A stretch of 64,000 bases of DNA from Viridothelium virens (Eukaryota; Ascomycota; Dothideomycetes; Trypetheliales; Trypetheliaceae). Positions 4,801 through 35,057 of the stretch are shown piece by piece. Under the pieces are notes generated by a model. That model ran no database searches and had not been told where the DNA came from. It saw only the letters and a program-made list of their open reading frames with translations. The stretch spans positions 1 to 64,000 of the forward strand of contig ML991869.1 of NCBI GenBank assembly GCA_010094025.1, in the 5' to 3' direction. The translations under genes were made by a program, and so were the position numbers. Every line of letters begins with the position of its first letter. The stretch's first letter is position 1.

Positions 4801-4920
4801 GATGCAGTATTGGGAGGCGCTAGACTTATAATGCGCCAGGAGGTGCTTTGAACGATTAAAGACTTGGATAAGAGATGATATCTAGAGACACGAGAAGGAA
4901 AGAGGAGATGGGGGCGGAAA

Positions 4921-5011: not shown

Positions 5012-5832
5012 AATGAGTTTTGGGGGTGGTGTTGAGGTATCTACGAGGGATTAATGGAGGATAGGTGTTAAAGGTTGAGTATTATTGAAAATGTCATTTG
5101 TTTGCTCAGCCGCATTACGATTGCGAGCTCGTTGCCTACAATACCTAACCCACTCGATCACGCCATCGTGAGCTCCACGAGAAATGAATCGTTCTCTAAG
5201 CAGTACTCCTCTTTCCTAGTCTGGTAATGTCATGTGAGGTACAAGAGGTTCGGTGAGGGTGAGCGTTGGGGTTGAGGATAGAGTGACGTCTTGGTGGTCA
5301 CGGCGCGACTGAGTCCTCCGCCACGCGCTTCGTTTGTACCTCCATAATTCCGCATCGAGCTTTAATACCGACCCTCACCAACTTCCTCTATCCACCACCT
5401 ACCATACTCCAACCCCTTCCAGTTTCTTGGTTGGCCCTTCTGAAGCCAATAATCCTCTACTGGTACTTTTACGCCTTCGGCTTTGTCAAGGAACGACCTG
5501 CACCGTTCTTGCTTCGACCGGAGAGCGCCCTACACGTAGACATTAGAAAGTTTCCCGAGACTCTTCACGACGGTCCTTTCTGCGAATCATTTGATGCTCA
5601 TACTTTCTGTCCCTAATATCAGTTGCGTGGGATTCAAGCTTTCATCGGGTTGATCGCAACGTTCACTTCTCATCGAACATCGAAGCTCCCAACCATACCC
5701 GGATACCACCGTCGAGCGCTGCAAATTTTGCTCTGCCTCCCGAAATTTTTTTTCTCCCAGAGCATCTGCACGTTCGACTCGTCTGCAAGCTTCATGTAAA
5801 GGAGCCCGGCGCTCGTGGAAGAAGTTGTTAAC
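5012..5832. other. Upstream region of the HECT ligase
   Basis: No supported gene. Pyrimidine-rich runs around 5370-5440 and 5690-5760 resemble the CT-rich tracts common near fungal transcription starts, so this is probably promoter plus 5' leader. Short open frames here have no recognisable product. Confidence 0.45.
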
Positions 5833-11800: not shown

Positions 11801-14800
11801 ACAAGTCATGCGTAGCGATATTCGGAACACCTTTGAGGGGGGCCGAGGTCAGACTAGAATCGATACAACCCACTATACACGTAATCTCTGCCACCTCATC
11901 ATTCGAGAACCAAGAATCTTTGTCGAGGTTACTAATGAGTTGACCACACTCTCGAGATGGGATCAGACTCAACGGCCTCAGATGCTTGTGCTCAAGAAGC
12001 AAGAGCCTGTGGTTCCTTCGAAAACCACCGAGCCTGTGGGAACCACGGAGAAACTAGCGAAAGACAATGATGCTAAGGAGTCGACTGCGCACAAGGAGAA
12101 GCAAGACGATGATCGACCAAAGACTGCGGAAATGAAACCGCCAATAGTCGAGAATCCGGATGGCGTCATCCATTATCTTCTTTGTGAGCTGCTCTCATAT
12201 AAGGACGTGGATGATAAGGAGCCTGCGATGCCTGAAACTTCAGATGGGCAAGGGGATATCGAAATGACGAGCGACGAGACACCCGTACCGCGTTCTACCA
12301 ATTCTACTCCAGTACCACCTGATACCATGATGCGAAAACCAGACAAGTCGGGATTCAAGTCAGAGGAGAATCCCATCTACGTGTATCGGTGTTTCATTCT
12401 CTATTGTCTTAATGAGCTTCTTGGCTGCTATAACCGGGCCAAGGTTGAATTCATCAATTTCTCCAGGAAGGCCGATCCCCAGACTCTGACCCCATCAAAA
12501 CCACGCTCTGGCGTCCTCAATTACTTGCTGAACGCCCTGGTTCCGACTGGTACCCTCACACAGCACGAGACTCTTGCGTACAAGAAGAAAAACTCTACCT
12601 CTTCCTGGGCTATCAGTGTCATTGTAGCACTATGTGCCAAGACAGGTGAGCGCTGGCCAGGAAGAGACCATCAAGATGCGCAGGACGAGTCGGAGTTGGT
12701 CTTTGTTCGCAAGTTTGTCCTGGAGCATGCACTCAAGGCATATCGAGATGCGATGTCTTCCAACGAGTCCCTTGACACGAAATACTCTCGACTGCTATGC
12801 CTGGCTGAGGTCTTCAACCGCATGCTGACTGGGGAGGTAAGCAAAAACTATCCGGCGGAAGCTTTCACCAATTCCCAAAAGCAGCTCGGTCGGATCATGT
12901 ATGAAAAGAACTTCATCTCAGCGCTCACGAGCTCTATCGCGGACATCGACCTCAACTTCCCAGGTGCAAGGCGTGCCATTAAATACGTCCTCCGACCTCT
13001 CAAATTACTCACCCAGAGAGCGTACGACCTCAGCATGACAACTGACATTTCGTCGTCTTCAGCAGCTCAGACAACTGACGAGGATGAAATCTCCACTGCG
13101 TCTTCTGTAACAGACCCTGATGATATTCGGGAAGAGACGCCGGATCTGTTCCGTAATTCCACTCTCGGTCTCATGGGCTCTGGCGCTCACGAGTCTGAAC
13201 CGTCTGCTGATGAAGAAGACGAAGAAGACGAAGACGAGATGTATGATGGTGGATTCGAAGAGATGGATTACGAAGATGAGCGCGACGATGACGAGCCTGT
13301 CAGCGACGATGAGGAAGGCATGGGCGACGTAGAAGGCCTTCCCGGCGACCTGGGTCCCATGGATATCGAAATTGTTGAAGATGAGGCCGGATCGGCCGAA
13401 TCTATGTCCGAGGACGACAGTAGCGATACTTCCGGAGATGACGATGAAGATGACGATGAAGATATCGACGAAGATGACGAAGGTGATGATCCAGATGGCG
13501 ATGATCATGGCGAAGGTATCGATGTCGAGATGGACCCTGACGGTATGCATCCTGTTCTCGAAATCGGTAGCGTCGAAAACGACGACGAGGACTGGGAAGA
13601 AGACGAAGACGGCAACGTCGATTACGAGCCGCATGACCATGGCGACGAAGACGAATCATCAGGCCCAGGTCCTCCAGCTGCCCGAGTCCTTCACGTTTTA
13701 GGAGGCGAGGGAAATACTCAAGAAATGATCAACCAGCTAATGAATGGTGAAGTGGATATGGAGATGGATCAAGATTATCTTGATGAAGAAATGCCCCCAG
13801 ATGGAGAAGAAGGTAGGCATCGGCTCTTAGCATACTCTTACCTGTTACAAGACATTGTTAACGTATTATACTCAGATGAAGAAGATGAAGACGAGGGAGA
13901 TTATGATGATGGAGACGAGATGGTTTATGAACAAGATCTCGAAGGTTCGCTCCCCTTTCTTTTTGCACGTCATCTCATTCCCGTTCCATCGTGTCAATCA
14001 CGGCGATCAACGTTTGTCTCTAAGTTCTGACTATGGGCGTGATCAACCTCATAAATTATCAGCATTGATGCATTATTTATTGTTATGCTGTGGAGATTTC
14101 AGTCACCCTCTTACCAGCATTTTCTCTGGCTCTAACTCCCGGTCAGAGGATGATTTCGACGATTCGGCTGGTATGTGGGATTGGCGCAATCAGCCACCAC
14201 CAGCTCTACTCCACAGACATCATCATCACCATCATACCCATCACAACCATCATCGACACGGCGGTCCTTTTGCTCTCTTGAGGGGCGTTCAAGACGATCG
14301 TGGCATAGGGAGTATGAAAATTGATAGTCGTGTTCTCAATCACAACCAGCTTGCTGACGTCGATTCAGTTCCCAACTCGTTCCGATCACATCAGCCTCGA
14401 GGTCCTCCACGCACCGATGACGGCATGAACCCTCTCCTTCGAAGCCGAAATACGCTAGACAGCGACGATCCCGCTGGACGTTCAACGCGCAGCTTAGGCT
14501 TTCTTCCGCCACCGGGCGCTTTTGGCGATGATATACGTGGACCTCTCGGACGACGAGGCGGTCGCCATGGCATTGTCATGCCCCCAGGCATGGGCTTTCC
14601 CGATGGGATGAGCATCATCAATCAAATCTTCGGAACTCTTACTGGATCTCATAACAGCCGTTTTCCACCTGCGGGTGAAATTTCCTTCTCACTAGGACCA
14701 GTTGATAATGGAGATCGCGGTCGCTTTGGACCAGTCCCGCGGGACATGGAATTCTATCTCGATCGACGGCATAATGGGCGTGATCCATTCCCTCGGACTG

Positions 14801-17800
14801 ACGATCCGGCAAGAGCAGTCGCTTTCCAGCCTAGTGTCACGATCTCACGGTGGCAGGATGAAGCCCGTCTGCTGTTTGGTAACGAATACATTGAAAAAGC
14901 ACAGCGTGTGATCAATTCTATCCTGAAGTTGCTTGTTCCGCCTGCCATCGAAGAGAAGAAGAAACGTGATGAGGAGGCTGCCAAAAAGAAAGCAGAAGAG
15001 GAGGCTCGGCTGAAGAAAGAGCAAGAGCAGCGTGAAGCACAAGAGAAGAAAGAGCGTGAAGAGCGCGAAGCCCGGGAGCGCGAAGAAGCTGAGGCTCGTC
15101 GGCGTGAAGAGGAAGCTGCGCGACAGGCGGAGCAACAAACTGAGGAATCGATAACAGAGACTGAGACAGAAATGGAGGGCGTCGAGCCTACACAGCCAGT
15201 AGAGGCTTCAGGTGACCAATCTGCTGGTCCATCAGAGCCTAGACCACGGGTCACTGCTACGTTCCGCAATCAGGAGGTGGACATCACCGACTTGGGTATC
15301 GACGTCGGCTTCCTTGAAGCTCTACCTGAAGACCTTCGGGAAGAAGTACTCCAAACTCAGGTCCTGGAACATCGTGCACGTGCCGCTGAATCCGGCCAGG
15401 AACCAGCCGGTTTCGATCAAGAGTTTCTTCAAGCATTGCCCCCCGATATTCGAGAAGACGTCCTCCGACAAGAAGCGATCGCTCGCCGACGACGTGAACG
15501 AGATGAACAGCGGCGTCGTGCTGCTGCTGCGAGCGGCGGACCTCCTCGTGCAGAAGAGATGGATCCCGCAAGCTTTCTGGCCTCCCTTGATCCTGCCCTA
15601 CGGCAAGCTGTGCTCATGGAGCAAGACGACAACATTCTTTCGCAGCTTCCAGAAGAAATTGCAGCAGAAGCACGATCATATGGCGGGGGCCGCATGGAAC
15701 AACTCATAAGTATGGGCGCCGGACGGCCACCACGCTTCACCGGTCGCGAAGCGCTACGAGCTGACGGAGATGGCGAGCAATCCCAAAAGCCACAACGACG
15801 ACAGGTTGTACAGATGCTTGACAAGGCCGGTGTTGCGACGATCCTACGTCTTATGTTCATTCCTTTACAGGGCTCAGTCAAGTCGACTATGCAGGGTATT
15901 CTTCGTGATGTCTGCGAGAATCGAACCAATCGTTCAGAAGTGGTTACATTGCTTCTCTCGATACTGCAAGATGGCAGTTATGATATGAATGCCGTCGAGC
16001 GCAGCTTCTCTAACCTGTCACTACGTGCCAAGCAGCCGGCGAGCCAGAAGACACCTCAACCAGCTCTCAAACGTACTCTTACAGGACAGCCACTTCTTCC
16101 CACCAACACTGACATATCCCCACTCATGGTCGTCCAACAGTGCTTGAACACCCTCGGCTTCCTGACTCAGTATAACGGTCACATTCCCTCGTTCTTCCTG
16201 ACCGCCCACGAATCCAGTGTCAATATCGGAGGCATGCGCTCAAACAAAAAGGGCAAAGGCAAGGAGATTAAAGGTGCCAAATTTCCACTCAATTCTCTTC
16301 TGGGCCTGTTAGACCGAAAACTGGTTACCGAAAGCTCTAGCGTCATGGAACAGCTTGCTGGTTTACTCACTATCGTCACCCACCCTTTGACTATCTTAAG
16401 TAGGAAGAAGGAAAAGGTTGAGGAGGAGAAAAAGGATGAAAAGAAAGATGAATCAGGAGCCTCTCGAGAGGCTGAAGGAGCTGCTGAAAGAGACTTGACG
16501 GTGTCAAGCACTGGAGTCCCAGCCGAAACTGCCACAGAAACTACAATGCAGGACGCCGCCACAACGGAACCTTCAGTGCCGGCAGAAAACAAGGAGAACG
16601 AGGTAAAAGAGGCGGAAAAGCCTAAGAAACACCATAACTTGGTTCCCCCAGAAATTCCTGAGCCCAACTTCCGCCTTGTCGTGAATATCCTCACTGCTCG
16701 CGAATGTAGCAGCAAAACTTTCAAAGACACCTTGACGTTGATGAACAATCTTTCCCACATTAACGAGGCTCGCGACATCTTCGGGCAGGAGCTCGTCAAC
16801 TCTGCCCAGGAGCTTGCTCACGCCATTTGGAAGGATCTCGAGGAACTGATTGCTCAGGTTGACAAGGCCAAAAGTGGCACGGATGTCCAAGGATTGGCTC
16901 TCTGGAAATTCTCACCTACCAGCTCTGATCAAACGAAGCTGCTACGTGTATTGACAGCACTCGACTACCTCTTCGATCCCAAGCGAGTCGAATTGCAGGA
17001 CCCGCCAAAACGGGCTCCAGACGGGCTGACCTTAGAGCAGAAGTCGGAGATTCTGACCACGCTCTATAACAACCGAGAATTCACTGGACTGTGGGACAAG
17101 CTCAGCGAAAGCCTCAGCGCCATTCAAAGACGAGAGAATATGTTCAATGTCGCTCAGATCCTTTCTCCGCTCATAGAAGCTTTCATGGTAGTGTGTAAGA
17201 ACACGACACTCAAGGACGTACCTTTGACCAAGATCGCATCGAAAGAGATCGCAATCTCCTCGCCAGCTCCGGAATCGCAAATGGAGAGCCTATTCTTCAA
17301 GTTCACCGAAGAACACCGGAAAATACTCAACGACCTTGTCCGCCATAATCCCAAGCTCATGAGCGGTACATTCTCATTGCTAGTCAAGAATTCGAAGGTG
17401 CTGGAATTTGATACCAAGCGTAACTACTTCAATCGCCGACTTCACCAACGCAGCACGGAGCAGACCATCCGTCATCAACCTCTCCAACTTCAAGTTCGGC
17501 GCGAGTTCGTCTTTCTCGACTCCTTCAAATCCCTATACTACAAAAAGGCCGACGAGGTCAAGTTTGGAAAGCTCAGTATTCGTTTCTTCGGCGAAGAAGG
17601 TGTCGATGCTGGTGGGGTTACCCGTGAATGGTTTCAAGCACTCGCTCGCCAGATGTTTAACCCTGACTACGCACTATTCCAATCCGTCGCCTCCGACCGC
17701 ACCACTTTCCACCCAAGTCGCCTATCGTCCATCAATCACGAGCATTTGATGTACTTCAAATTCATCGGCCGCATCATTGGCAAGGCTCTCTATGAAGGCC

Positions 17801-18679
17801 GTGTCTTAGATTGCCATTTCAGTCGAGCAGTCTACAAGCGAATGCTCGGGAAGACGGTATCTGTCAAGGACATGGAGACGCTTGATCTGGATTACTATAA
17901 GAGCCTGGTGTGGATGCTGGAAAATGACATTACGGATATCATCACAGAGACCTTCTCGGTGCAAATTGATGAGTTTGGGGAGCAGAAGACGATTGATCTG
18001 ATCGAGAATGGACGGAATATCCCAGTGACGGAAGAGAACAAAAGGGAGTATGTGCAATTAGTCACTGAGCACAAGATGATCGGCGCTGTATCCGAACAGC
18101 TTGAGCATTTCTTGACAGGTAAGTTTGACGTCCCTTCCTTAACTCGAACTCGCAAGACACTAACTGTCATGCAGGCTTTCACGATATCGTACCTGCTGAA
18201 CTCATTGCCATCTTTAACGAACAAGAGCTCGAACTCCTCATCTCTGGCCTTCCGGACATTGATGTCGACGACTGGAAAAACAATACTGAATACCACACGT
18301 ACACCGCCACTGCACCGCAGATCCAGTGGTTTTGGCGCGCGGTGCGCAGCTTCGATAAGGAAGAGCGTGCGAAACTATTGCAATTCGTCACGGGAACTAG
18401 TAAAGTGCCATTGAATGGATTCAAGGAGCTTGAGGGTATGAACGGATTCAGCAAGTTCAATATCCATCGGGACTTTGGCAAGGCGGACAGGCTTCCAACT
18501 AGTCATACTTGCTTCAATCGTAAGTCCACTAATCTTCTAAGTCCAACAACATGGGACACAGAGCTAATCATTGCTTACTACCAGAACTCGATCTTCCTGA
18601 ATACGAAAGCTATGAGGACCTCAGGAAGCAGCTGTACACTGCATTCACGGCGGGCAGCGAATACTTTGGTTTCGCATAG
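5833..18679 (+). CDS. tom1: TOM1/HUWE1-type giant HECT E3 ubiquitin ligase
   Basis: HECT ligases take ubiquitin from an E2 on a catalytic Cys and pass it to substrates; yeast Tom1 acts on excess histones, ribosomal proteins and mRNA-export factors. Exons read as 5833-5880, 5937-13812, 13876-13944, 14147-18118, 18175-18519 and 18585-18679, giving about 4134 aa with all phases closing. The start [16 protein letters not shown] fits the family. N-terminal helical repeats (DUF908/DUF913 type) cover roughly residues 90-900 and a UBA-like segment lies near 1500. A very acidic tract spans about 2440-2680, followed by a His cluster near 2685 and a charged coiled coil. Two ubiquitin-binding UBM-like motifs ([26 protein letters not shown]) lie near 3050-3110. 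The HECT domain fills the last 350 residues, with catalytic Cys in HTCFN (residue 4101, codon 18510-18512), two codons before the last splice donor. Exon 2 alone is 7.9 kb. The intron before exon 4 (202 nt) is long, and its exact ends are the least certain join. Confidence 0.95.
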
Positions 18680-19253
18680 AGGACGGATGGCAAAACAAAA
18701 GCTCATATTTACTTCTTCACCTACATCCTTAACCTCCTAGATTGAGAAAAGCACATTTTCACCTTAATCAAATCGAGAACGAGTACTACGCGCATGGACA
18801 CACGAGGAATGGGAACTCTGCTTTGCATTTCTCCGGCGTTGCGATCACGAGTTTAATTCCATACTGTCCGGACTTCTGGCTTTACTCACATTGCTTCGCT
18901 TTGCTTTGCCGGAATCGGCTCTGCTGAGTGGTGGAACAGGGCGGAGGAGTTTCATGCAGATTGCTTTCTCGATGCTGTACATTACACACCCGCTACACTT
19001 TCGTTCTTGGGGGAGCAGATATGGCTACTGGCAAATGGGGTCGGTCGAAGTGCAGGTCGGCTGGCTCAGACCCGGTGAGCCTGGCTCGATGAGTTGTATG
19101 TAGTTACTCAAAATTTATAGCAAAATGAGTCTCAATTTGCTCCAAATCCATTTCCAGTAAAAGTCGGTCAAATTTGCGAATTTGGTCATGTGGCAACTCT
19201 CGCCTATCTAATGGGCAGCAAAAGATCTTCACTAGCGTTGGCATCATTGATGT
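18680..19253. other. Convergent intergenic region
   Basis: Lies between the stop of the HECT ligase (plus) and the stop of the MFS gene (minus), so it should carry two 3' untranslated regions. I see no coding segment. It marks the left border of the candidate metabolite cluster. Confidence 0.5.
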
Positions 19254-21242
19254 TCACTCTAAGTTTCTATCCTCGACCTTGCGCGGATGCCGTTCCCACA
19301 TGAGGAATGATACCAAGAACACCAGGCCACTGAAAGCAGCGACGACGTGCATCTGCAGACTGTAAGCGTCTGCAAATGTCACTCTGATCTGGTTTCGCTG
19401 CGGCTCTCTCAAGCTGTTGATGTTGGAGGCCGAATCGGAAATTTTTGACAGCTCTACCGGATCGATGATGTTTCGCAACTTGCTAGAAACATGATTGTTG
19501 AAGATAGAAGAGCAGATGGCGAGCCCTAGTGTTCCACCTAAGACACGAATTTGTGTCAACGCGCCCATCGTTACAGCCATATCCTTGTCCTCAACGACCA
19601 AAGGCGTCATGATGAGGATGGTGCTTAGACCGATGCCAAAGCCAAGACCCATGATAACTTCATACCCGAATTGTTGTTTTTCCAGATGCAGTGGTACGCT
19701 TGGAAGTGACCCAAGTAGGCATACACCGACCAACTGCAAAATCGACCCCGCTACTATGAGGTAGAAGGGAGGGATCTTCAAGTTGGATACAAGATATCCG
19801 CTAAGACCGCTTGCAAGAGGCGAGCATAGCAGGAGCGGCATTAGATAAACGCCAGCAAGAAGCGGCGAGACTGCATTGATGGCTTGGAAGCGCTGCGGAA
19901 GGTTGACAATAACAACCATAAATGGGAAGCCGGTGAAAAAAGCGTAGAGCATCATGCCGGAAATCATACGGTCCTTCAGTAAGCGAATAAGGAATACAGG
20001 TTCCTGCGTTGACTGAGGTCGGTCAACGTAGTGCTCCCACAGTGGAAACAGGATCCAGCAAATGCAGGCGCAGACTAGGGAAGAGATCATGGCAGCGCTA
20101 TCCCAGGCAAAGCGCGCACCGGCTTCCTCGAGGACAAAAACGAGCAGAACGCTGGCGGAGAGGAGGAGGAATGCTCCAATAAAGTCGACTCGGTGCCAAG
20201 CATGATTATGGACGCGCTTGCGTATAAGCATGAACATTGCAGTATCCGCAGCAGTTGCTGGCAAGAAGATGATGAGGAGTAACATCGCGACCGCTCCAAC
20301 GGGGCCACTAGAGATAAACGTTAACCCATATGGCAATCTTTCTCACGCACCAGATCTGTTCTCACTTGAGATAAAATACCCATCGCCAGTCCTTCGAATG
20401 GTGCGTGATTGCGCCTCCCAGGAGGGGTCCAAGGATGCTTGCCAGAGCAAATACTGAGGAGATGATGGCCATGTATTTGCTGAGCTCCCGACGCGGGACG
20501 ACTTGGGGTGTGATTACCATAACCATCGAATATATACCGGACCCTCCCAGACCTTGGAAGGCTCTGAGGATGATCCTACCAACCCATTAGGTTACCAAGA
20601 AGTATTTAGTTGAAAATTTGGATAGCAGCATACAGGGTTAAGACGGAGTCGCTGAGACCGGACAGGATAGAGAACAGAATGAAGAGCAGTAGAGCGAGCA
20701 GGATCAGGCACTTCCTCCCAAAGATATCGCTGAATTTTGCGTATATCGTCAGAAAGCCTGGGCGTCGTTAATGGGTCAGGAAATGTCGGCATAATCTATA
20801 GGCACTTTCGCTACTGACCAGTATAGGTCAGCAAGTAGGATGTGACGATCCAGTCCCTTTGGGCGAATCCATTAAGTTCGTTCGTAATCGATACCAAGGC
20901 TGTGCTGACGATCGTGGTCTCCAGTGTCGACAACAGTAGACTGACACAGAGCCTTGAAGACAGATTAGCGGGTTAGAAGGAAACGGACCTGGCAGAAGGT
21001 TACCCTAGTACCAAGACATTCAGACGCCATTTCTCCTTTGGCTGGCCAGCCTCCTCTGCTGCCGTGGGCGAGGCATTGATAGGTTCAGTAATACTCCTAT
21101 CAGACACGGACGGTGCTTGAGAGGCTGATCGAGAATATATTGACGTCGCTTCCTCTGTCGGGTTGGCGACACAGAATATCTGATCCTCGCTCAAAGACCG
21201 AAGCTCCACAGGCATTTGCTGTGACGCATCCTGCAGGGTCAT
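19254..21242 (-). CDS. MFS multidrug/metabolite exporter, DHA2-like (14-TM type)
   Basis: Proton antiporter family that exports drugs and secondary metabolites across the plasma membrane. Exons on the minus strand read as 21242-21004, 20952-20819, 20757-20634, 20575-20366 and 20307-19254; four introns of 51-61 nt, phases closing, about 586 aa. A hydrophilic N-terminus of about 70 residues precedes the first helix (LLLSTLETTIVSTAL). Family motif A appears as YAKFSDIFGRK and the antiporter motif C as ASILGPLLGGAITHH, followed by WRWVFYLNGPVGA. Many hydrophobic segments follow to the C-terminus. It shares a divergent 857-bp promoter with the glycosyltransferase, which suggests joint control and a role as product exporter or self-protection pump. 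Confidence 0.88.
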
Positions 21243-22099
21243 TGCTGTGGCATTGATAGAGGCAAAGCTGTCGCTATGAGTTCACAGCCGAAGACGGTAC
21301 TCGAGAATGGAAAACACACGCTGGTATGAGGGTCTGTGGTGCCGTAGGATTCTTCGCGGGTATCGTACCCAGTGTGGGGACACTCGCGCATACAAAAGGT
21401 GCATGTTTGCTACTTTCACTCCGGCTGAACACAGCTTGTGGCACGGACGAGGATAGTCGAGCAGTTGCCTTCCACCGCGGGCGACAGTGAGTGTACCTCT
21501 ATACCGGGAGGCTGGATAGGCGGTGGAGTACTCTATGTACGATATGCAACGCCCTGATGCTTAGCTTCCGGGCTACTCCGTGTAGAGGGAGGGATCAACG
21601 GCCCAGGCTCCAGATCCTTGCACCTATACGGCCCAGAAACAAAGAAAGCGAACACCGAATGCCAAAGCCATCGATCCATCAAACGGGAGGGCGTGTCCGG
21701 TAAGACGACCAACACCATGGGGTAGTGCACAGTGAGACTACCTGGATGCATTCGTCATGTCACAGTGAATTGCGGCTCTTGCAAGGTGGTCCATCCAACC
21801 ACTACGAGCGAAAGAGTCTCCACACGAGACAATGTCCGACGCAATGTTATTACGGTACGATAATCGTGAATCACGCTATCGGCCTCTCTACCTTAAGTCG
21901 ACCGTTCTCGCGTGGATCTCATGTCTCGACATTAAAGCATCGACATCACCGAGAGATTAAGGTGAGAAATTTAGTATAATGCCCCCATCATCAGATCCAT
22001 GTTTCGTATTGTGCACTATCTCTCATGTTTTCTGATCGTCATTTCTTCGGGCAACTTGTGGTTCGACAGAGTCGATTTTGCATGCCACAGGAAGAGAAT
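21243..22099. promoter_or_regulatory. Divergent promoter between MFS exporter and glycosyltransferase
   Basis: 857 bp between the two start codons, with no supported gene inside; the short open frames here have no recognisable product. It must contain both promoters. I could not find a clear shared operator by eye. Confidence 0.5.
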
Positions 22100-23759
22100 A
22101 TGCCTCGTGCATCGTCTACAGCAGACTTACCAAAGCGCAAGATACTAGTGGTAGTCACCGTCGGAGGAGCAACCAATGTCGGTGAGTCTACGGTTGGATC
22201 GAATAAAGAGCAAGCTCTTAACCTACTCTGTCTCAGCGCCTATCTTGCAAGTCTGCTCTGTTCTAGCCCAACGAGGTCACAGAATCGACTTCGCTACACT
22301 GCAAACTAGAGAGTCACTAGCTAGCCCATACCCATTCATATCCAACATCCACACTCTGGGCCGTGGTATTACCGCCACCGAAGAGGAACAGCTTTATTCC
22401 CGCTTCAATGAGTGGGACGGCAATACGATCGAAGGGAAGCGCACTATTGTATGGGTAAAGCGATTCCACGATTCCTTGTGGCCGGAAACCTACCACAAGC
22501 TCAAGCATCTTGTTCAGGTAGTGAAACCGGATCTTATTTTCGCCGACTACCAGGTCGAGGCTACTCGCGATGTGACCCATGAGGCGTGTATCTCTTTGGT
22601 CGTGATGTGGTGTCAGATGCCATGGCTGCTGATGCCGCAGAAATACATTCCCGGTCAGCCGGGTATGCAACAGAGGTGTCTTACTAGCGAGAATGCCTCC
22701 ATTTACGATCGACTCTTTGATGCCACTAACTTGCTTCGCGCCGCTCCATACTTCCTCCAGTATCTATCTTGGATGCGCAAGATGCGGCGGGAAGCTGGCC
22801 TAGTGAATCCGCCACAAGGTTCGAAGCCGGACCATCTTCTTCTAGTCAACTCCTTCTGGGGCATAGAGCCCCCGAAAGATCTTCCACCGCTAGCTCATCC
22901 CGTCGGTCCTCTACTGTCCGACTCTTACACTCCGCTTGACCCAGCGTCCAAGGCATTCCTTGACACACATCCTCGCGTCGTCTACGTGGCATTTGGCACT
23001 CACGTGCTCATGACAGCAGAGCGTTTGACCAAACTCATTGCCGGCCTCGATGCTGCGATCCAAGGTGATGAGATTGATGGGGTTTTCTGGGCCATCAAAG
23101 ACGCTTCTCGAGCGTGTGTCCTCCAAACAGCCAATGTTCCGATACTCAACGGACCGACATACCAGGAGCTATTTAGGAACGGATTGGCCAAGTGGTTTTT
23201 CGCCGACTACGCCCCTCAGCGGGCCGTTCTGCGTCATTCGTCAGTAAAGATTTTTGTCACCCACGCTGGTCCTTCATCCGCCAATGAGTCGATCTTTCAT
23301 GGTGTCCCAATGATTGCCATGGGAATCTACGGCGATCAACTTCCAAACTCACGTCGTTTAGTAGAAGCAGGAGTTGCCATTCGTCTTGACAGGAATCAGT
23401 TTACCTCTGCGTCGCTGTCTTCAAGTATTTCCTGCATCCTAAATGACGAGGGCCATTGCTTCGAGCGCAACGTATTGCGAATGCAGTGCGTAGCTCAGGT
23501 CAACTCGCGCAGAAAATATCTTGCAGCCGATCTCGTCGAGGAATACCTTTTTGATTGGGAATTGCGATTTGAACACACGCCAAATTGGGGGTTGGAAGGT
23601 AAAGCACATGAAAGGGGAAAAGAGCTTCGCCCGATGCATCTTCAAACTGCTGATGCACGCATGTCCTGGTTGAAAAGAAACAACTTGGATCTCTATATTC
23701 TGGCTGCTGTAGTATTTCCGATTCTACCATTCCTGTTGATAGTTCTCTTATTCGTATGA
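22100..23759 (+). CDS. Family-1 (UGT-like) glycosyltransferase with C-terminal membrane anchor
   Basis: Transfers a sugar from a UDP-sugar donor to a small lipophilic acceptor. Exons 22100-22181 and 22237-23759, joined in phase across a 55-nt intron, give about 534 aa; an ATG 18 bases upstream (22082) is an alternative start. The N-terminal acceptor half begins KILVVVTVGGATNVAPILQV, as in GT-B enzymes. The donor-binding signature is clear: FVTHAGPSSANESIFHGVPM followed by GDQLPNSRRL, keeping the His, Glu and terminal Asp-Gln of the UGT motif. The last 24 residues are a hydrophobic helix (LYILAAVVFPILPFLLIVLL), so the enzyme is probably tethered to the ER or another membrane. It meets the hydrolase gene tail to tail with only 4 bp between stop codons. 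In this setting it probably glycosylates the polyketide. Confidence 0.87.
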
Positions 23760-23763
23760 GGTA

Positions 23764-24599
23764 TCATTGCCCTAAGGTTGCCTTCAAAATCACATTTTGA
23801 ATCACATCCGTCATTTCATCAGTCACCCCACTAGGCGAGCGAGGAATCTCGTGTCCTGCGCCATGGTCATAGGTTACTCTACCATAGTCCTGGCATAGCT
23901 TGGCCAGAACGTGCGCGTGCTCTACATCGGGATCCCTGGCCCCGTAAATATGGGCGCTAGGGACCAAGATGACGGGCTCCTCCTCCTTCCCTGGTTCCAA
24001 GAGCTCCACGACGCCCTTCTTCAGAGCCTGTTCCGAGAAGGGAATGTCGGCACAGATGAAGATGGCGAGGCTGAATGGCGCATGGCATCCATGTCGCGCA
24101 AGCAGCATAGCAGCAAGAACGGCACCTTGAGAAAACCCCAAGATGCCATCGAACGGCCCGGCCTTCTTCACGTAAGCATCCAGATCTTTGATGGCTTCCA
24201 AAATGCTAGATGCCGACCCAGAATCGTAGTATGCAAGGCACTCATCGGGTCCAAGATTCAAAGTTTCGGAACCTGTGTACGGATAAGCAACGTTGGCACC
24301 TAAAAACGGTAGGAAGAGGGAGGGGGGGAAAGAGCAATGAAATGAGTGGGGATGAGATAACAGACCTGGAGCTGGCGGCCATTGCAGCTCACCATCCACG
24401 AACTCAAACTTGTGAACATGTGGCTCGCAGATCTCGCTCCTGAGAGCCGCTGGACCTTATGTCAGTCTACAGAGCCATACAAGGGAAAGTTTAGCTCAAG
24501 AATCTGAATGGGATTAGTTTCACTTATGTTATGGGAGGAGCTACAGGCTTTACAGACCTTTGAGTTGGTACCCATTCCGTGTAGACAGAGGAACCGCAT
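23764..24599 (-). CDS. FSH-family serine hydrolase, LovG-like
   Basis: Alpha/beta hydrolase of the fungal FSH1/LovG group; LovG is known to release the finished chain from the highly reducing PKS of lovastatin. Exons read as 24599-24554, 24455-24366 and 24299-23764 (about 223 aa). The start MRFLCLHGMGTNSK is the classic family N-terminus. Nucleophile elbow GFSQG, Asp in YGARDPD and His in GAGHEIP form the triad in the usual order. The first intron (98 nt, donor GTAAAG) is the least certain join; the short exon 2 begins PAALRSEI. The gene diverges from the PKS over a 961-bp promoter, which fits a dedicated chain-release or editing enzyme for that PKS. Confidence 0.85.
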
Positions 24600-25560
24600 G
24601 GCCGTAGCAGCGTTAGAGTTCTACCAATGAGAGTATTGGAGGGTGAAGGAGGATCATCTACGGCCGAGGTGGCAGAGTCTTCAAGGATTGGATTCAACCG
24701 AGAAATGTCTGGGCCCAGGGATGCCAAGGTCACGAGGAGCGGTCAAGGGGCTGTGATGAAAAAGGCAGTCAAGATTGGCCGGACCGCTAATTACAGAAGC
24801 AGCTATATCACAACCGGCCCAGCACCGACCAGATTGGTAAGTGAGTTGGCTACAAGAGCAGAATGTTGGACCACATTAAGCAAGATAATAAAGCACCTGG
24901 CTACACAAGCAGCTGTGTCGTGGCCGCGGTTCAACGGTGTTCTACGCATTATTTCAAGATATCAAGGAGGAACGGGGCCAATAGCCGGAAAATTACCGTG
25001 AAAGTGTGAATATTGAGTCAATCTCAGAAGAGAACGCTTCAAGATCACGATCCTAGGATTTCTGCGAGTTGAACAACGACGGTCCATGCGTAAAGGTCAA
25101 TCTTACTGTGTAATTAATCGTGAGAATCACAAGCATCTGGCGTATATGGGTCATCGTCCAGGCAGTGTAATCCACAAGCTTTCGCCACCTTTCCACTGCA
25201 CACAACGTCGATCGCAGTGCTAATTACTTGTTCATGATCTCCATTGAGAGCAATCTGGACTCCGTGTTGAGCGTCCTAATTCAACTGTCCTTTAGAAAGC
25301 AGTGGGTCCAACGAGTCCCTACGACCCACTTTCCAGGCACTTCTTAACACTTACGGGGCAAATTGACGGGCCCAATCGATTAATCGATTAATCTCTCCAA
25401 AGATCCACTCGCTAGCTTGCTGCGTGTGTATATATTGACTTGCGGTGTCCTGTATTTCGTTCTCTCTCCTTTCTTCACCTGGCTTGTTACTCTCCTCTGA
25501 AGATAGCTATATCTGCTTACTACTTGATTCTTGAGCACATTCATCTCTTCTTCTGTGGTC
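24600..25560. promoter_or_regulatory. Divergent promoter between hydrolase and PKS
   Basis: 961 bp between start codons with no supported gene; the open frame at 24627-25001 (plus) encodes no recognisable protein. A TATA-like stretch TGTATATATT is at about 25427-25436, some 125 bp upstream of the PKS ATG. A tandem ATCGATTA element lies 45 bp further upstream and is listed separately. Confidence 0.5.
25374..25393. promoter_or_regulatory. Tandem ATCGATTA element upstream of the PKS TATA-like box
   Basis: ATCGATTA occurs twice back to back (25375-25382 and 25383-25390) and the run continues ATC, so each 8-mer is the start of another near-palindrome around ATCGAT. It lies about 35-55 bp upstream of the TATA-like stretch. 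Position and repetition make it a candidate binding site, but no regulator is identified. Confidence 0.35.
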
Positions 25561-28500
25561 ATGGAGACCATGGAGCCTATCGCCGTTATCGGCTTAGACC
25601 TGAAATTTCCTGGGGATGCTACCGATCCTAACTCATTCTTCAACATGCTGATGGCTAAAGGCTCAGCACTGAGGGAGATTCCTAAGGATAGATTCAATCT
25701 GGACGCTTTTTCCCATCCAGATCCCGAACGCGCTGGCACTGTAAGTTCTCAATCTACGAAAGGGTATCCAGGTGAAGGGCCAATATTGGGGGCCTTTCCG
25801 ACTCCAGTCCTGGAAAATGGAGGATCTTATACATTCTACGCTATACATTCTCCACGAATGTAATACTATGATTCTGTTAATTGGAATTGCTAAATCATAT
25901 GCTCTTCTTGATTTCGTCATTTTCAGATCGTATCATTCCCCAATGGTAGCTGGTGGCTTCTTACACCCTCTTTGAACAACATACCTTTGTACATTGTTCA
26001 TTAGACCTTGGGACTGACTCACCGACACAGCTTCACGTCCGTAGCGCACATTTTCTAAAGGAAAATATTGCAGCTTTTGATGCCCCATTCTTTTCTATCA
26101 CATCCGCTGAGGCGGCCGGGACGGACCCTCAACAGCGTGGCTTGCTTGAGTCCACGTACCGAGCCCTAGAGAATGGTAAGTGCCTTTGTTACCCAAAATT
26201 TTCAATCGCTGAATTGTATTTCAGCCGGGATGCCCTTGTCCCAGGTAACCGGATCCGATGCTGGAGTTTTCGTTGGATGTTTCACTCGCGAGTACGAAGC
26301 GATTATGTTCAAAGATCCAGAACTAAACCTTCGATACTCTGCCACTGGCACGGGCACCACTATGCTCGCCAATAGGTTGAGCTATTTTTTTTGATCTCCA
26401 CGGTCCCAGCGTCACTTTGGATACCGCCTGCTCGAGCAGTTTGACTGCTTGCCATTTGGCTTGCTCCGCCTTGCGTCAGGGAGAATGTTCTTCTGTAAGG
26501 CTTTCGCAGATCATTCACCTCGGTAATAATCTAATGGATTTGCGTAGGCTATTGTCGCCGGATGCAACCTTTTCTACAACCCTGATACAGTCATCCCGCC
26601 AACGAGTCTCGGCTTTCTTTCTCCTGAGGGAAAATGTTTCAGCTTCGATCATCGTGCCAACGGGTACTCTCGCGGAGAGGGTTTCGGAGTACTTGTATTG
26701 AAGCGCTTCAAAGATGCAATTCGCGATGGTGATACGATTCGTGCCGTAATTCGGGGTTCATCTTCAAACCAAGATGGCAAGTCGCCAGGCATTACTCAGC
26801 CAACACCGCAAGCTCAAATGGATCTTATCCGTACTGCATACAAGAACGCTGGGCTCGGGCTCGAGGACACTCGATACTTTGAGGCTCATGGCACAGGTAC
26901 TCCCGTCGGTGATCCCATTGAGGCCAGTGCCATCGGTGGTGTGTTCTCCAAGCACCGTTCCAAAGAGGAGCCAATGTACGTGGGCGCCCTCAAGACAAAT
27001 GTGGGCCATTTAGAAGGCTCTGCAGGGATTGCCGGGTTGCTCAAGGCAGTCTTAGTCCTGGAACGGGGGATCATCCCACCAAATATCAATTTTGAAAAGC
27101 CTAACGCAAAGATTCCGGTCGATGAGTGGGGTATCAAATTCCCGACTGATGCGTATTCTTGGCCGAATAGAGGGCTCCGCCGTGCGTCTGTCAATGCTTT
27201 TAGGTACGGAGGAAGTAATGCCCACGTGGTTCTGGATGATGCATTGCACTACATGGCTTCTCTTGGACTCACGGGGAAGCATCGAACGGTAGAATATCCT
27301 GTGCAATCAGCTCTAGACGGCGCCAAACAAGCAATCACAGAGGCGTTCACGAATGGTCATACAAATGGTGTTTCAAATGGTCTCAATTCTGCCCATACAA
27401 GCCGTCTTGCATCGTCTCTACCTAGGAAGCGCATCTTCGTCTTCTCTTCCTTTGACGAGGCCGGTGCGGAACGACTTGCTACCACTTACGTAGACCATTT
27501 GAAGCAGGTCAAACTAGCAAACGGGGAAGAGGACACATACCTGAACGATCTTAGCTTCACCCTATCTTCAAAGCGGAGCATGTTTCCCTGGGAGTTTAAT
27601 GTTGTTGCCGACAACCTGCCTGCATTGACTGAAGCTTTAAAGTCAAAGCCGTCACCCACTCGAGTCGCGGCCGAACCGAAGCTTGGGCTGGTCTTCACAG
27701 GCCAGGGTGCTCAATGGCACGCAATGGGTCGAGAGTTACTTTCGTACCCTGTGTTCGAGCAATCCCTAACAGCAGCAGATAAGTATCTCCAAGGGCTTGG
27801 CTGTAGCTGGTCGCTAATAGAAGAGCTGCTCAAGGAGGAGAGTGCCTCAGCTATTGACAACCCCGCGTACAGTCAGCCAATTTGCACTGCCCTCCAGATA
27901 GCCCTGGTCGAGTTGCTAAAGCACTTTGGTGTTAAATACGCTGCGGTGATAGGTCATTCCTCAGGAGAAATTAGTGCTGCGTATGCCACTGGTGCTATCT
28001 CTTGCGAGCCAGCGTGGAAGCTATCCTATTTTCGCGGCATCCTCTCCGCCAAGTTGGCTGAAAGATCTGACGGTACCATGTTGGCGGTCGGCCTTAGTCA
28101 GGAAGACGGGATTAGCTATATTGAGAAGACCTTGAGTATCTCAGAAAAAGGTACCATCGTGGTGGCTTGCGTGAATAGTCCCTGCAACGTTACCGTTAGT
28201 GGCAAGAGTTCCAGTATCAAACTTCTCAAAGACGCTCTCGATCGCGAAAGCATCATGAATCGACAACTGCGGGTTGAGAACGCGTACCATTCTCCGTACA
28301 TGGAAGCAATCGCCAACGCCTACCGTGATTCTATTAAGGATATTCGTGCTGGTGAAGGAGTAGCAGATGTCAGCTTTTATTCCTCTCTTACCGGAGCTGT
28401 GCTGTCACCGTCAGAATTGCAAGATCCGCAGTATTGGATACAAAACCTTGTTTCGCCTGTCCTTTTCAGCCAGGCGATGACAAGTATGTTTTCTGGTACA

Positions 28501-31500
28501 ATGTTAAAGACTAGGAAGCTTCGATCTACTGCCAAAGTGAGTCCTATCACCGAACTACTCGAAGTCGGACCACATGGCGCACTCCGCGGACCCATCCGTG
28601 AGATCAAAGAGAGGAGCACGAAAAAGATCGATGTTGCTTATGAATCGCTCTTGACACGAGGCTCCCCCGCGGATACGACGGCATTGAATGCCATCGGATG
28701 GCTTCACTGTCATGGACATAGCGTTAAGCTTGGGAATATCAATGAGAATGCAGGGGCCTGTCTGCTTACGGATCTTCCGAGCTATCCTTTCAACCACACG
28801 CAAAGCTATTGGAATGAAAGCAGACTCAGCAAGGGCTATCGCTTTCGCAGTACTGTGCGCCATGAGCTTCTTGGCGCCCCGGTACCAGATTGGAATCCTG
28901 CAAATGCTATATGGCGTAATTATATTCGTATTAGTGAAAATCCCTGGGTCAAAGACCATCGGATTACTGGATCAACCATTTATCCAGCAGCAGGAATGCT
29001 TGTCATGGCTATAGAAGCAGCACGACAACTGGCCGACATGAATAGGAAATTAAAGGGTTTTCGCATCCGAGACGCAAAATTCTCTGTGGCCCTTCGCGTC
29101 CCGTTGAATGCCACAGGCATTGAAACCCACTTTTGGCTCCGTCCCTGCCACGAAATTTCAGGCCCATCAGGTCACACCTGGAATGAGTTTTATCTCTCGA
29201 GTTTTGAGAACGATGAATGGCGAGAGCATTGCCGGGGCTACATTGTGACAGAGTACGAGACTCAGGCGTCCCCGGTTGATGCAGGTCTCGAAGAGGCTCT
29301 GTTCGCAAAGAGTTGTACCGATACGATGAGATCCGTCGAGGATGCAAGCACTCAAGAAGTCTCTTTTAGGCAGATGTACGAGCATCTCTCAACGGTCGGA
29401 CTTGACTTTGGCCCTACGTTTCAGACGTTGGGAAGCATCAGACATGGACACAACCATGAGGCAGTGGCAACCGTTGTCGCTCCAGATATTGCCGGGAAGA
29501 TGCCTCGTGGCTATGTTCAGCCGCATTTAGTCCATCCAACCACACTCGATGGTATCCTTCAGAGCATCATCCTTGCATTGACCAAAGGTGGTCGGGAGGT
29601 TACTCAGGTCATGGTTCCGTCTGAGATTCGCGATCTCTGGGTTTCTGCGAGACCCGAAGCGCATTTCCAATCAGTAAGAGTAGCAATTCAGTCCAAATTT
29701 CTCAGTATTCGGCAAGCAGAAGCATCAATCCTCTGCCTTGACAACAAATCTTTGCAACCGACTGCAACTGTGAACGGCTTCCAAGTCACTCAAGTCGCCA
29801 AAAACGAGGGGTCTGAGGAACCTGTACGGGGGCTTTGCTTCTATGTTGACTGGAAGGCCAATCCCAGCTACCTGACCCAAGAGACTGCGAATACTCTGAC
29901 CAAAACCTCTGAGAGCTCTGATGATGTGGCGCGAAGGACAAAAATGATCGAAGATATCGAAAAGCTCTGTTTCCTTTACATCAGACGCTACCTCAACGCT
30001 CATCCGAATCCCGAAGCCGTCGAAAGTGGTGAGCCTCATCATAAGAGATATGTGGAATGGACGAAATATCAGGCGAAGCGTTTCGAGCTGGGTGAGATTC
30101 CTCATAGCCAACCCGCGTGGTTTGATCAAGCCAAGGACGATGGGCATATTGCCGCCATGGAGGAGCGCCTCGAGAACTCTTCGGCAGAAGGGAAACTCTG
30201 TATTGCAATTGGACGTGCCCTTCCAGATATTCTCGCTGGGAAACAGGACGCTCTCGCGCTGATGTTCAACGACAAGCTCGTGGAAAATGTATATCGGTAC
30301 AGTGCCGGAGCTGAAATCGGATACGAGAAAATGAACAAGTACATTGACGCTTTAGCGCACCAAAATCCAGCCTTGGAGATCCTGGAGGTTGGCGCTGGAA
30401 CCGGAGGCGCCACAAAGCCTGTTTTGCAGTGTCTTACCTCTCAAAGCAATAACGAGAAGGCTACTCCCCGCTTTTCTCGATATGACTTCACCGATATTTC
30501 TATCGGCTTCTTTGAGAAGGCCAAGGAAATGTTTGCAGAAACCGCAGACCGGATGAATTTCCGTGCCTTAAATATCGAAGGTGATCTTACGCAACAGGGT
30601 TTCGACAAGGAGCAGTACGACGTTATCCTCGCCGCCAACGTTGTGCACGCCACAAAAAATCTGGAAGCGACGTTGTCCAATGTGCGCAAGATGATGAAGC
30701 CTGGTGGGAAGCTCATACTGTACGAAATGACGAACACGCAATTGATTCGTACTGGGTTGGCCTTTGGCTTTCTTCCTGGTTGGTGGCTTTCCAACGAGGA
30801 CTTTCGCTACTGGGGCCCGCTTACAAGTCCGAAAGACTGGTCTGGGGCGCTGAAGAAGAGCGGCTTCTCAGGTGTCGATACTGGCCTTTTCGACTTTCCC
30901 GACGAAAGGTCACAACTTGTCAGTGTGCTAATTGCTACAGCCCCGGGGGCAGACACCACCGGTACTGTTCCAGATGACAACCTTACAATTATCCTGGAGA
31001 AGGAATCCAAGTTGCAGAGTGATATTGCCGCCTCTTTTCAGGCAATGCTCAAGGAGCGAAGCGGGCTGGAGGCGTCGCTAATCAGTGTGGATGAAATCAT
31101 AAAAACCGACCTGAGCAAGAGTCTCTGCTTCTTGCTTCCTGATGTGGAAACTCCGCTCCTCGAAAATCTGGAGGAGAAGACTCACAAAGCACTTCAAAAG
31201 CTGACCCATTCTGCCAAAAGCTTACTGTGGCTGACTCAAGGTGGTGGTCCAAGTCCACGAAACGCAAAGGCAGACCTTGTCACCGGCTTTGCTAGAACAA
31301 TTCGTGCAGAGAACCCGATGATGAAGTTTGTCACGCTCTCGCTTGACGACATCACGTCTCCTGTGCTGGCAGCGGAGACCACATGGAAGGTAGTCAATAC
31401 TTGCTTCAAGAAAGACCGGGTTCAAAGTTCGGAGAATACTCTATACGAAAAGGACGGTGTCATCTGTATCGGACGCCTCACCGAGGCCAAGGGTATGAAT

Positions 31501-33856
31501 GAAGCCATCGCTGCCCGGAGCACGACTCAAAAGCTGGTGAAAGAACCGCTTGATGTTGGCCGTCCACTTACTCTTTCTATTGGGGTGTCTGGATTACTTG
31601 ATACTCTCCAATTCCAAGACGACCTACAATATGATCAAGCGCTCCGCGCGGAAGAGGTCGAGGTTGAAATAAAGGCCACGGGCCTCAACCTTTTGGATAC
31701 TCTGATTGCGCTCGGTCAAGTCCAGGGTAGGGCATTTGGCCATGAAGGTGCTGGTGTCGTCAGCAGAGCCGGGAATAGCTCTCCTTCAAGGCCCGGTGAC
31801 CGCGTCTGCGGTCCAGCTCGAGGAACTTTCAACACATTTACCAGGTCTTCATCTCACAACTGGTCAAAGATACCAGACAACTTGTCTTTCACATCGGCTG
31901 CGGCCATCCCAATTGTCTACGGGACAGCCTATCATGCTCTATATGACGTTGCCAGAGTCCAGAAAGGAGAGACCGTCCTGGTCCACTGGGGTGCAGGTGG
32001 CGTGGGCCAGGCAGCGATCCAGATTGCAAGTCTAGCTGGTGCAACTCTTATCGTCACCGTCGGATCCCTAGAGAAGCGCGACTTTATTCGTGACACATAT
32101 GGCATCCCTGAGAGCAATATTCTAGCCAGCCATGACCTCTCTTTTGCTCAAGGAGTAATGCGCTTAACCAAAGGTCGTAGCGTAGACATCGTGATCAATT
32201 CCATGTCCGGTCAGGGTCTCAGGAGTAGTTGGGAGTGCATCGCGCAATTTGGGCGCTTTGTGGAAATTGGAAAGCTTGACATTTATAACTCGAACTCGCT
32301 TCCGATGCGTCCTTTCAAGAAGAACGTGACGTTCGCCTTCATCGATGTGGGCTTAATGGCGGACGAGAACGGACCTGTCTTCAATCGTGTCCTTAGAGAG
32401 GTGCTTCAACTTGCGCGTGCTGGCCAAATCACTGAGCCCAAACCTTTGCACGTTTTCTCCTATAGTCAGATTCAAGAAGCTTTCCGCACCATGCAGACAG
32501 GATCACATATAGGGAAATTCGTGTTCGAACCCCACAAGGATGATATTGTGCCAGTGAGTATTCGTGGAAATAAAGGGCTTGGCAAGTCCGCTAACAATAA
32601 AATAGATCGTTCCATCATCCAAACCAAGCTACGACTTTGAAGCCAATGCCACATATCTCATCACTGGCGGAATGGGTGGTCTCGGTCGAAGTATGGCCAA
32701 GTGGATGGCTTCCCGAGGTGCAAGAAACCTCATTCTTCTCTCCAGATCTGGTGTCGACCACCCGGCAGCGAAGGACTTGCTGGCAGAGATGGATGCTGTC
32801 GGAGTTACCGTGGCGACTCCAAAATGCGATGTCTCCAAAAGGGCTTTACTGCAAACTACCTTGACTGACTGTCTGAAGCGCATGCCTCCGATTAAAGGTG
32901 CCATACTTGGTGCGATGGCTCTCAAGGTATATACAGGCTTTCTAGATTGAGAAACTCGTTTAGGTCCGCTTTCGCTGACAAAGTAATAGGATAGCACTTA
33001 CGAAAATATGTCAATCCGGGATTACCACACTGCCGTCGCTCCGAAGGTGTACGGATCGTGGAATGTCCACGATCTGCTGCCCAAGGATCTTGATTTCTTC
33101 ATTTTGCTTTCCTCGGCGGCTGGGGTCGTGGGCAACTTTGGTCAAAGTAATTATTGCGTCGGCAACACATATCAAGACGCGCTTGCCCGTTTCCGGGTGG
33201 CACAGGGGCTCAAAGCCACGTCTATCGATCTTGGCATGATCCTTTCCGTGGGTTTTACGGCAGAAAACCAGGACACGATGGCACATCTCCGTCAGTCCGG
33301 CTTCAACGCCATGCGCGAAAGCGAGTTCTTGGCCATGCTCGATGCTCTTTGCAACCCAAATCGCCCTCCTCCCAATGCTCTCGGCTCGCAGATTGCTCTC
33401 GGTCTCGAGGCTCCGGAGACGTTGCGCGTTAAAGGTATCGACGAGCCACCCTGGATGAAAGATCCACTATTCAAACAGCTTTTCCAGATTCGCACTGAAA
33501 CCGGCAGAGGGAGTGACACCGACAAGGATGCCGTACAGTATGGTGCCATGCTATCCACCTGCACAACCGAGGACGAAGCCATCAATGTAGTGACGGACGC
33601 GATAGTGCAGAAATTGTGCAAAGCGCTTTCTACAACAGCGCGTGAAATTGACATCAACAAACCACCGCATGCTTACGGTGTTGATTCACTCGTCGCTGTC
33701 GAGTTGCGTACGTGGCTTGCGAAAGAAATCGCGGCCGAGGTTGCAGTCTTTGACATCATGGGTGGTTCTAGCTTACAGCAATTGGCCGTGTTGGCGGCGA
33801 AGAGGAGCAGCTTTGTCAAGATTGTCTCTGAGGACGAGAAGCCGATAGATGGTTAG
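25561..33856 (+). CDS. Highly reducing type I polyketide synthase, KS-AT-DH-MT-ER-KR-ACP
   Basis: Iterative enzyme that builds and fully processes a polyketide chain. Exons read as 25561-25740, 26031-26175, 26225-26494, 26548-32553, 32606-32926 and 32990-33856 (about 2600 aa). KS: active site DTACSSS near 26420, then [12 protein letters not shown] and [20 protein letters not shown] near 27695 and [12 protein letters not shown] near 27950. [12 protein letters not shown] near 28960 and the downstream Asp in [11 protein letters not shown]-methyltransferase: [13 protein letters not shown] near 30385, an intact SAM motif. [10 protein letters not shown] and [11 protein letters not shown] near 31740 and 31985. 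[12 protein letters not shown] near 32665, Tyr in [24 protein letters not shown] near 33680. There is no thioesterase domain, which fits release by the adjacent LovG-like hydrolase. The first intron (290 nt) is much longer than the others. With the splice sites I can see, the KS portion does not close in one frame: about one break, which could be sequence error or real decay. The product is unknown. Confidence 0.92.
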
Positions 33857-34398
33857 GCTCAAGCAAAGCTGATGTAGGCGGAATTCGGGTCGTGGGTATC
33901 CAAGGAGAAGTCGCGCCTGATTGATTGTTGTGGGAGAGTTGGTCAATCTTGTAATTGGCGAGTTTAGCCTGCCTTAGATAATCACCACATCCTATTGGGC
34001 TAGATTAGGGGGTTTCTAATTAGACTCCACAGCTAGGTACTGTAGATAGAAGACAATGACTATGCGGCAAGGTAATGTGCCGCTTCAACTCTCAGATACT
34101 CTCGCCTAAGGTAATTAGTGTGTAGCAAGAGATTTTCCCTGGCGTTGGCCGTGAGGTTGAGTACAACAGTACCAAATTTACTCTACAAGTAAGATGTATT
34201 GACCTGAGGTGCGAAAATACGGCAGTTCTCTGACCGAGGTTAAATGTCATTACATTGCATAATAGCAGAAACGATTGTGGAGTGGTATTTTCGTTGACCT
34301 TACTTTTACCACATGAGCCCGCTCGATACATCCATGGTTTCGGAGGCAGCTTCTTGTAGAGTACTCAGCAGCAACGTTTATTTGCCCGATCAAGCGAT
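33857..34398. other. Intergenic between PKS and CMD-like gene
   Basis: Same-strand gap of 542 bp holding the PKS 3' region and the promoter of the next gene. No coding segment was recognised on either strand. Confidence 0.5.
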
Positions 34399-35057
34399 AT
34401 GGCGCGATTTCCGGTAATTACCTCCGATGAGTCCATGCCTTCACGGCAGCTCATTGAAAAGGGAGCCGACACTCTGCTCTCACGAGCTCCCTATCTGGAA
34501 TACAAGGATGCTGAGGGTAATTATCTCGGCCCTTTTGCAAGTCTCATGTACGCAAGTACTCCCACCCTCGGATAGGTCGCTGAGCCGCGAGATGCAGATA
34601 CACGCCGGATATAATCGAGGCTTATTTTCAGTGTGCTTTCGCCGTGGGAAAACAAGAGCGGTTTACTCCACGAGAGCGGGAGCTTTGCGTCCTCGCCGTG
34701 CTTGCCGTATACGATGCACCGTATCCGCTCTACATACATTCTGAGGTTGCAGTGAAATGTGGCATCTCAGCGAGTGAAGTTCAGCAGGCCGTGAACGGGA
34801 AGACTCCGGATGGTCTCGAGAAGGTTGAGGCTATAATCTACAATTTTTCCCTTAACTTGGCGCAGTCACGGTCCCCGTTGGATGCTGCGACATTTGAAGA
34901 AGCAAGAAACGTTCTAGGTCGAGAAAGAGTCGCAGGACTGGCCCAGCTAGTCTGCGCTTATGTACAGGTGTCTATTCTGTCCAATATTGACGGTGGTAAG
35001 ATTCCAGCACGGAAGGAAGGTGTATTCTTCGCCTCCAAAGATACAAAATCTAAATAG
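34399..35057 (+). CDS. Carboxymuconolactone decarboxylase / AhpD-like protein
   Basis: Small all-helical family that includes gamma-carboxymuconolactone decarboxylases and AhpD-like peroxidases; several members occur in fungal metabolite clusters. Exons 34399-34547 and 34598-35057, joined across a 50-nt intron in phase, give about 202 aa. The join restores the family stretch GPFASLIYTPDIIEAYFQ. The core motif ERELCVLAVLAVYDAPYPLY ends in IHSEVAVKCG, placing the conserved Glu and His as expected. There is no CxxC pair, so a thiol peroxidase role is unlikely. It follows the PKS on the same strand and may act as a tailoring enzyme; the reaction cannot be told from sequence. Confidence 0.78.

Follow-up and report, generated by a model that had tools for sequence, protein, structure and literature searches.

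A compact candidate cluster for a methylated and glycosylated reduced polyketide, with an interrupted ketosynthase frame, in Viridothelium virens

Sugar-bearing products of fungal highly reducing polyketide synthases (HR-PKSs) have been described in different systems. In Fusarium mangiferae, the genes coding for the HR-PKS, Fpy2, Fpy3 and Fpy5 are co-expressed within the fusapyrone cluster FPY1-FPY7 (PMC10512364). The genome of Aspergillus luteorubrus contains two clusters with co-located HR-PKS and glycosyltransferase (GT) genes, and the product of its ltb cluster, luteodienoside A, is a sugar-bearing methylated polyketide (PMC10901484); the product of the treconorin cluster (tre) of Trichoderma also carries a sugar (PMC10682982). 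Here we describe a locus of Viridothelium virens located on a stretch of 64,000 nucleotides (contig ML991869.1, positions 1 to 64,000), referred to below as the window. Five neighboring genes between positions 19254 and 35057 probably form a compact fungal secondary-metabolite cluster, by which a methylated reduced polyketide would be made, released, glycosylated and exported, with the ketosynthase (KS) frame of the synthase broken in the assembly. The window belongs to a contig of 74,634 bases (C99), and the genome searched comprises 30.7 Mb in 175 contigs; judging from its intron-bearing genes, the window would be of the filamentous fungus type.

The order and orientation of the five genes, as proposed in a first-pass annotation of the same DNA, are borne out by Pfam matches and by gene models with GT-AG introns, whose frames are open in all genes but the polyketide synthase (PKS) gene. 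The first of them (19254-21242, minus strand) has five exons and codes for a 586 aa MFS exporter of the DHA2/EmrB-like type (PF07690, 5e-40), whose best NCBIfam match among the best 25 of 55 is TIGR00711 (efflux_EmrB), with 168.5 bits and thus under the cut-off of 230.2. It is followed by genes for a UDP-glycosyltransferase (22082-23759, plus strand), an FSH1/LovG-type serine hydrolase (23764-24599, minus strand), the HR-PKS (25561-33856, plus strand) and a protein similar to the carboxymuconolactone decarboxylase/AhpD superfamily (CMD-like; 34399-35057, plus strand). The two divergent promoter regions claimed by the earlier annotation, joining four of the genes into pairs, are also found: one of 839 bp between the MFS and GT genes (21243-22081) and another of 961 bp between the FSH1 and PKS genes (24600-25560), as given by the gene models. 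The GT and FSH1 genes lie tail to tail, with only 4 bases separating their stop codons.

All seven domains of the synthase (KS, AT, DH, MT, ER, KR and ACP) are matched by Pfam in one gene, and its best PDB match is the lovastatin nonaketide synthase (7.2e-184). On the 3' side of the break discussed below, the gene retains a KS motif of 23 residues, GHSSGE (AT), GAGGVG (ER), motifs of ten residues each for DH and MT, a KR region and an ACP region marked by 11 residues, the roles of these motifs being those that we presume for them. The PKS stops after the ACP, so that no thioesterase (TE) or carnitine acyltransferase (cAT) domain follows, and the FSH1 gene is adjacent; the first-pass annotation was right on the missing TE and on the neighboring hydrolase. 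The hydrolase (three-exon model, 223 aa) matches PF03959 with 89.4 bits (3.3e-25; cut-off 21), contains GFSQG, GARDPD and GHEIP as the motifs of its catalytic Ser, Asp and His, and aligns to PDB 1ycd (1.5e-5), whereas no NCBIfam match to the protein was found. Its first intron (24456-24560, minus strand) is ambiguous, and the best model is three residues short with respect to the paralog on contig C73.

The GT gene has two exons and codes for 540 aa ending in a hydrophobic helix. The protein matches PF00201 with 86.5 bits (2.3e-24; cut-off 19.5), and within that region PF06722 (35.1 bits, cut-off 31.7) and PF04101 (24.5 bits, cut-off 22) exceed theirs as well. The best 60 of its 126 PDB matches are UGTs and other glycosyltransferases, while the NCBIfam matches of both the GT and the CMD-like protein are all below cut-off, the macrolide glycosyltransferase models far below it in the case of the GT. 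The last 22 residues have a mean hydropathy of 2.93, and in a single-sequence AlphaFold model of exon 2 (mean pLDDT 36.1) confidence is confined to the last ~30 residues, modeled as a helix. Many UGTs use an N-terminal catalytic histidine; the N-terminal loop here reads GGATNVAP, without a histidine by eye, in a place where the alignment is unreliable and the fold model poor. Searched as a whole protein against the genome at E 0.001, the GT finds only itself. No PF03033 domain was matched in it by Pfam; it shares 21% identity over 188 aa with a PF03033 protein on contig C42 (E 7e-4), and has no match at E 1e-3 to those on C97 and C17. Due to the missing PF03033 domain and the low pairwise similarity, it is not taken for a sterol glucosyltransferase of the Atg26 type. 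A grouping with sterol glucosyltransferases, which the first-pass annotation had named as the finding that would speak against its cluster, is thus not seen by domains and pairwise similarity, compared without a tree.

The CMD-like gene (two exons, 202 aa) shows a weak match to PF02627 (25.9 bits, cut-off 23), and the PDB matches of its product are marginal (best E 0.035). No CxxC was found when its 202-aa sequence was read by eye; since we take this redox pair to be the mark of AhpD-type thiol peroxidases, an activity of that kind is unlikely. A single-sequence AlphaFold model of its exon 2 (mean pLDDT 46.1) was, like that of the GT, too poor for a fold search, and a search for prokaryotic relatives gave 198 pattern matches, of which 0 were confirmed.

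Gene content and catalytic motifs are read directly from the window, and from them the following order of steps may be proposed. The iterative PKS would condense malonyl units, with C-methylation of the alpha-carbon at some positions (MT) and variable reduction of the beta position (KR, DH, ER). As the synthase lacks a TE, the adjoining FSH1 hydrolase most likely frees the chain by cleaving it from the ACP, in the role of LovG. The membrane-anchored UDP-glycosyltransferase would then add a sugar, whose nature and attachment site belong to the proposal, either to the free chain or to a pyrone derived from it, and export of the product would fall to the DHA2-like transporter. The CMD-like protein probably carries out a small tailoring step, such as a decarboxylation or an isomerization. 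The sequence of methylated reduced chain, hydrolytic release, glycosylation and export advanced in the first-pass annotation fits these domains.

The same annotation spoke of a "full" synthase, missing the interruption within the KS. The frame switches at a run of eight T (T8; 26385-26392, plus strand): on the upstream side it closes with a ten-residue segment followed by TGA, and the conserved KS active-site segment (17 residues) appears downstream of T8 in another frame. Paralogous KSs are continuous at this point, with the two KS pieces aligning to directly adjoining bases at several further KS loci (e.g., L002, L003, L024, L025, L050); for the closest PKS paralog (L023), the alignment of the second piece leaves out its first 32 residues. 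After splicing, the assembly does not yield one uninterrupted PKS coding frame. An intron that would remove the break was also considered and rejected: with the one GT-AG pair examined, the intron would measure 34 bases and conserved residues of the KS would be lost. From 26393 onward, 2431 codons are open up to the PKS stop, with three canonical introns, and thus a real lesion would be young. T8 is the sole homopolymer of at least 8 bases in ten delimited coding spans (introns included), in which a length of 7 is reached just twice, by an A7 of a TOM1-like gene and by a G7 within an FSH1 intron.

A sequencing or assembly error and a young lesion appear about equally likely as the origin of this break, and the cluster is possibly broken in the sequenced strain. 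To the explanation that the frame change is an error, the cluster being intact and functional, we would give an even chance: the position at a homopolymer and the undecayed remainder of the PKS gene argue for it, as does the long TOM1-like gene, whose frame is open and whose one inspected junction is an ordinary intron, whereas no other homopolymer error was recognized in the genes examined. On the other hand, it is quite conceivable, if not favored, that the frame change is real, the strain being left without the product and the neighboring genes persisting because the loss is recent. Slippage mutations are common at homopolymers, and the change falls where the KS is highly conserved, at the only run of such length in the coding spans mentioned above; nonetheless, such a run is also prone to sequencer or assembler error, the gene has stayed open with its three further introns over the whole 3' part, and the frames of its four partners are open as well. 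Both explanations concern the state of the same proposed cluster and leave its gene content as described.

Whether these genes are together by chance can be judged from the rest of the genome, in which 42 KS loci were found and proximity was counted within 15 kb of a KS; the locus counts come from six-frame searches scoring the best candidates only, and are therefore lower bounds. A KS is nearby at 9 of the 15 FSH1 loci, that of the window included (0.63 expected), so the FSH1-PKS pairing is usual here and not special. Among five UDPGT loci, that of the window alone has a KS nearby (0.21 expected), and so have both of the two loci found with the CMD-like protein of the window (0.08 expected), a very small sample in which the locus on contig C141 lies 14 kb away. 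That GTs are uncommon beside HR-PKSs, as the first-pass annotation held, therefore stands for this genome (1/5 UDPGT loci), but its argument for novelty is weak given the fusapyrone precedent (PMC10512364). The closest PKS paralog found, 39% identical over 2002 aa, is on C73 and has FSH1 and MFS genes within about 8 kb that match the window proteins at 32-45% and 32-38%, respectively, by segment; FSH1 and MFS matches are also near a PKS on C1 (641-648 kb). No UDPGT match was found on the C73 or C1 contigs. The trio of PKS, FSH1 and MFS thus recurs at both places, which makes the GT and CMD-like genes the special part of the window.

This recurrence of the trio without a UDPGT match, together with the lack of any exact word of at least 8 bases common to all three cluster promoters, is what could be said for a pathway consisting of PKS, FSH1 and MFS, in which the GT and CMD-like genes would be unrelated neighbors; we consider it rather unlikely, as the GT gene has the MFS gene on one side, with a divergent region in common, and the FSH1 gene on the other, 4 bases from its end, the GT is the only UDPGT near a KS, and both CMD loci, few as they are, lie close to one.

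The proposed five-gene cluster for a methylated, glycosylated polyketide has itself several points to its disadvantage. With the KS frame broken, the present assembly does not spell out a working synthase. The FSH hydrolase of the fusarin cluster has been reported as dispensable (PMC10512364), which weakens the chain-release role given to the FSH1 protein of the window. The absence of a common promoter word leaves co-regulation unsupported by this word test, and a cluster regulator is not visible. In this respect, strict patterns for P450, Zn2Cys6, bZIP and AMP-ligase motifs gave none in the six frames of the window, a scan made without positive control and by which intron-split motifs would be missed; this agrees with the first-pass annotation, which saw no P450, ligase or regulator. 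A stand-alone dehydrogenase or P450 was likewise not found among the 34 open reading frames of the window scanned against Pfam, smaller exons being outside the scan.

On its left, the cluster borders a gene with HECT, DUF908, DUF913 and UBM domains (Pfam scan), a set that we take to be that of TOM1. To its right are a serine carboxypeptidase gene of family S10 (about 36.7-38.4 kb) and a V-ATPase-type gene (about 39-40.8 kb). The TOM1-like and V-ATPase-type genes flank the cluster, one per side, and this is counted in its favor. The V-ATPase-type gene was considered for a self-resistance role and discarded, as PF22919 occurs at three places of the genome (the window, C46 and C116) and the gene looks like that of an ordinary subunit. 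The S10 carboxypeptidase was considered as a plant-like acyltransferase using glucose esters and also set aside: it has matches on nine other contigs, some of them short fragments, and carboxypeptidase Y as its best PDB match, and for these reasons it is left out of the pathway.

Farther to the right, domain matches point to three genes of NLR-like type in a span of about 23 kb: one with PNP_UDP_1, NACHT and ankyrin domains (41306-44765, minus strand), another with SesA, NACHT and ankyrin domains (49146-53528, plus strand) and a third with NB-ARC and TPR domains (61810-63872, minus strand). Between the first two lies an AT-rich block (45001-47500), with 22-28% GC over 45001-47000 compared to mostly 45-55% elsewhere. 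No open reading frame reaches 70 aa from about 44.8 to 47.7 kb, and the block is perhaps a repeat that has decayed. A second MFS gene (minus strand) and a gene for a TauD-type dioxygenase (plus strand) are found at 54582-58205, about 20 kb to the right of the cluster. Elsewhere in the genome, the MFS and FSH1 matches of the C73 locus (49.8-64.6 kb; L023, L041, L042) are convergent, with a fungal rhodopsin-domain gene nearby. The C141 locus (1-20000; L039, L040) contains, besides the second CMD-like match and a PKS KS, an FSH1 match with several stops, an ADH-like oxidoreductase, an M20 peptidase and an O-methyltransferase domain.

Among the known systems, LovB and LovG resemble the window in the combination of an HR-PKS lacking a TE, matched to LovB through the PDB, with a stand-alone hydrolase of the FSH1 type, LovG being presumably such a partner of LovB. 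LovB depends on the trans-acting ER LovC, and the lovastatin cluster is not known to contain a GT. LovG is also mentioned in the fusapyrone study (PMC10512364). The treconorin cluster shares with the window an HR-PKS and an alpha/beta hydrolase but obtains its sugar through trehalose esterification and a glucosidase, and a UDP-glycosyltransferase is not described in the available excerpts of that report (PMC10682982). The ltb cluster is alike in its HR-PKS with MT, transmembrane GT and MFS transporter; it differs in that the GT is family-2-like and the PKS carries a cAT release domain, whereas the GT of the window is of the UDPGT type and release presumably falls to the stand-alone FSH1 protein (PMC10901484). 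The likeness to the fusapyrone cluster, which is one of gene types only, goes further: an HR-PKS with C-methyltransferase and no cAT, with the gene of the UDP-glycosyltransferase Fpy2 beside it, is accompanied there by the FSH1 serine hydrolase Fpy3 and the MFS transporter Fpy5 (PMC10512364). Two further enzymes encoded there are a dehydrogenase (Fpy6) and a P450 (Fpy7), the P450 gene being missing from the clusters of two species of Fusarium (PMC10512364); as neither enzyme is seen in the window, the present cluster is not filed as a fusapyrone cluster. Given the fusapyrone gene set and the other sugar-bearing HR-PKS products, the suggestion of the first-pass annotation that the product may be a glycoside of a still unassigned kind is not established (PMC10512364; PMC10901484; PMC10682982).

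The CMD-like gene is a distinctive addition to the fusapyrone-type gene set: the word carboxymuconolactone is absent from the main text of the fusapyrone study (PMC10512364), and no paper on CMD proteins in highly reducing PKS clusters, or on AhpD-like proteins in fungal PKS clusters, was found by searching the open-access literature. A more daring version of the pathway, improbable in its full detail, would be a fusapyrone-like glycoside route in which the CMD-like protein, instead of a P450 or a dehydrogenase, tailors the released chain by a cofactor-free decarboxylation, isomerization or ring closure ahead of a membrane-bound C- or O-glycosyltransferase, with a very young loss of the synthase and the rest intact. 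Should the KS lesion be real, the cluster would have been caught shortly after the loss of its core enzyme. If the cluster works, it would provide one more gene arrangement among the few fungal clusters pairing an HR-PKS with a UDP-glycosyltransferase, and would offer a CMD-like protein in such a pathway.

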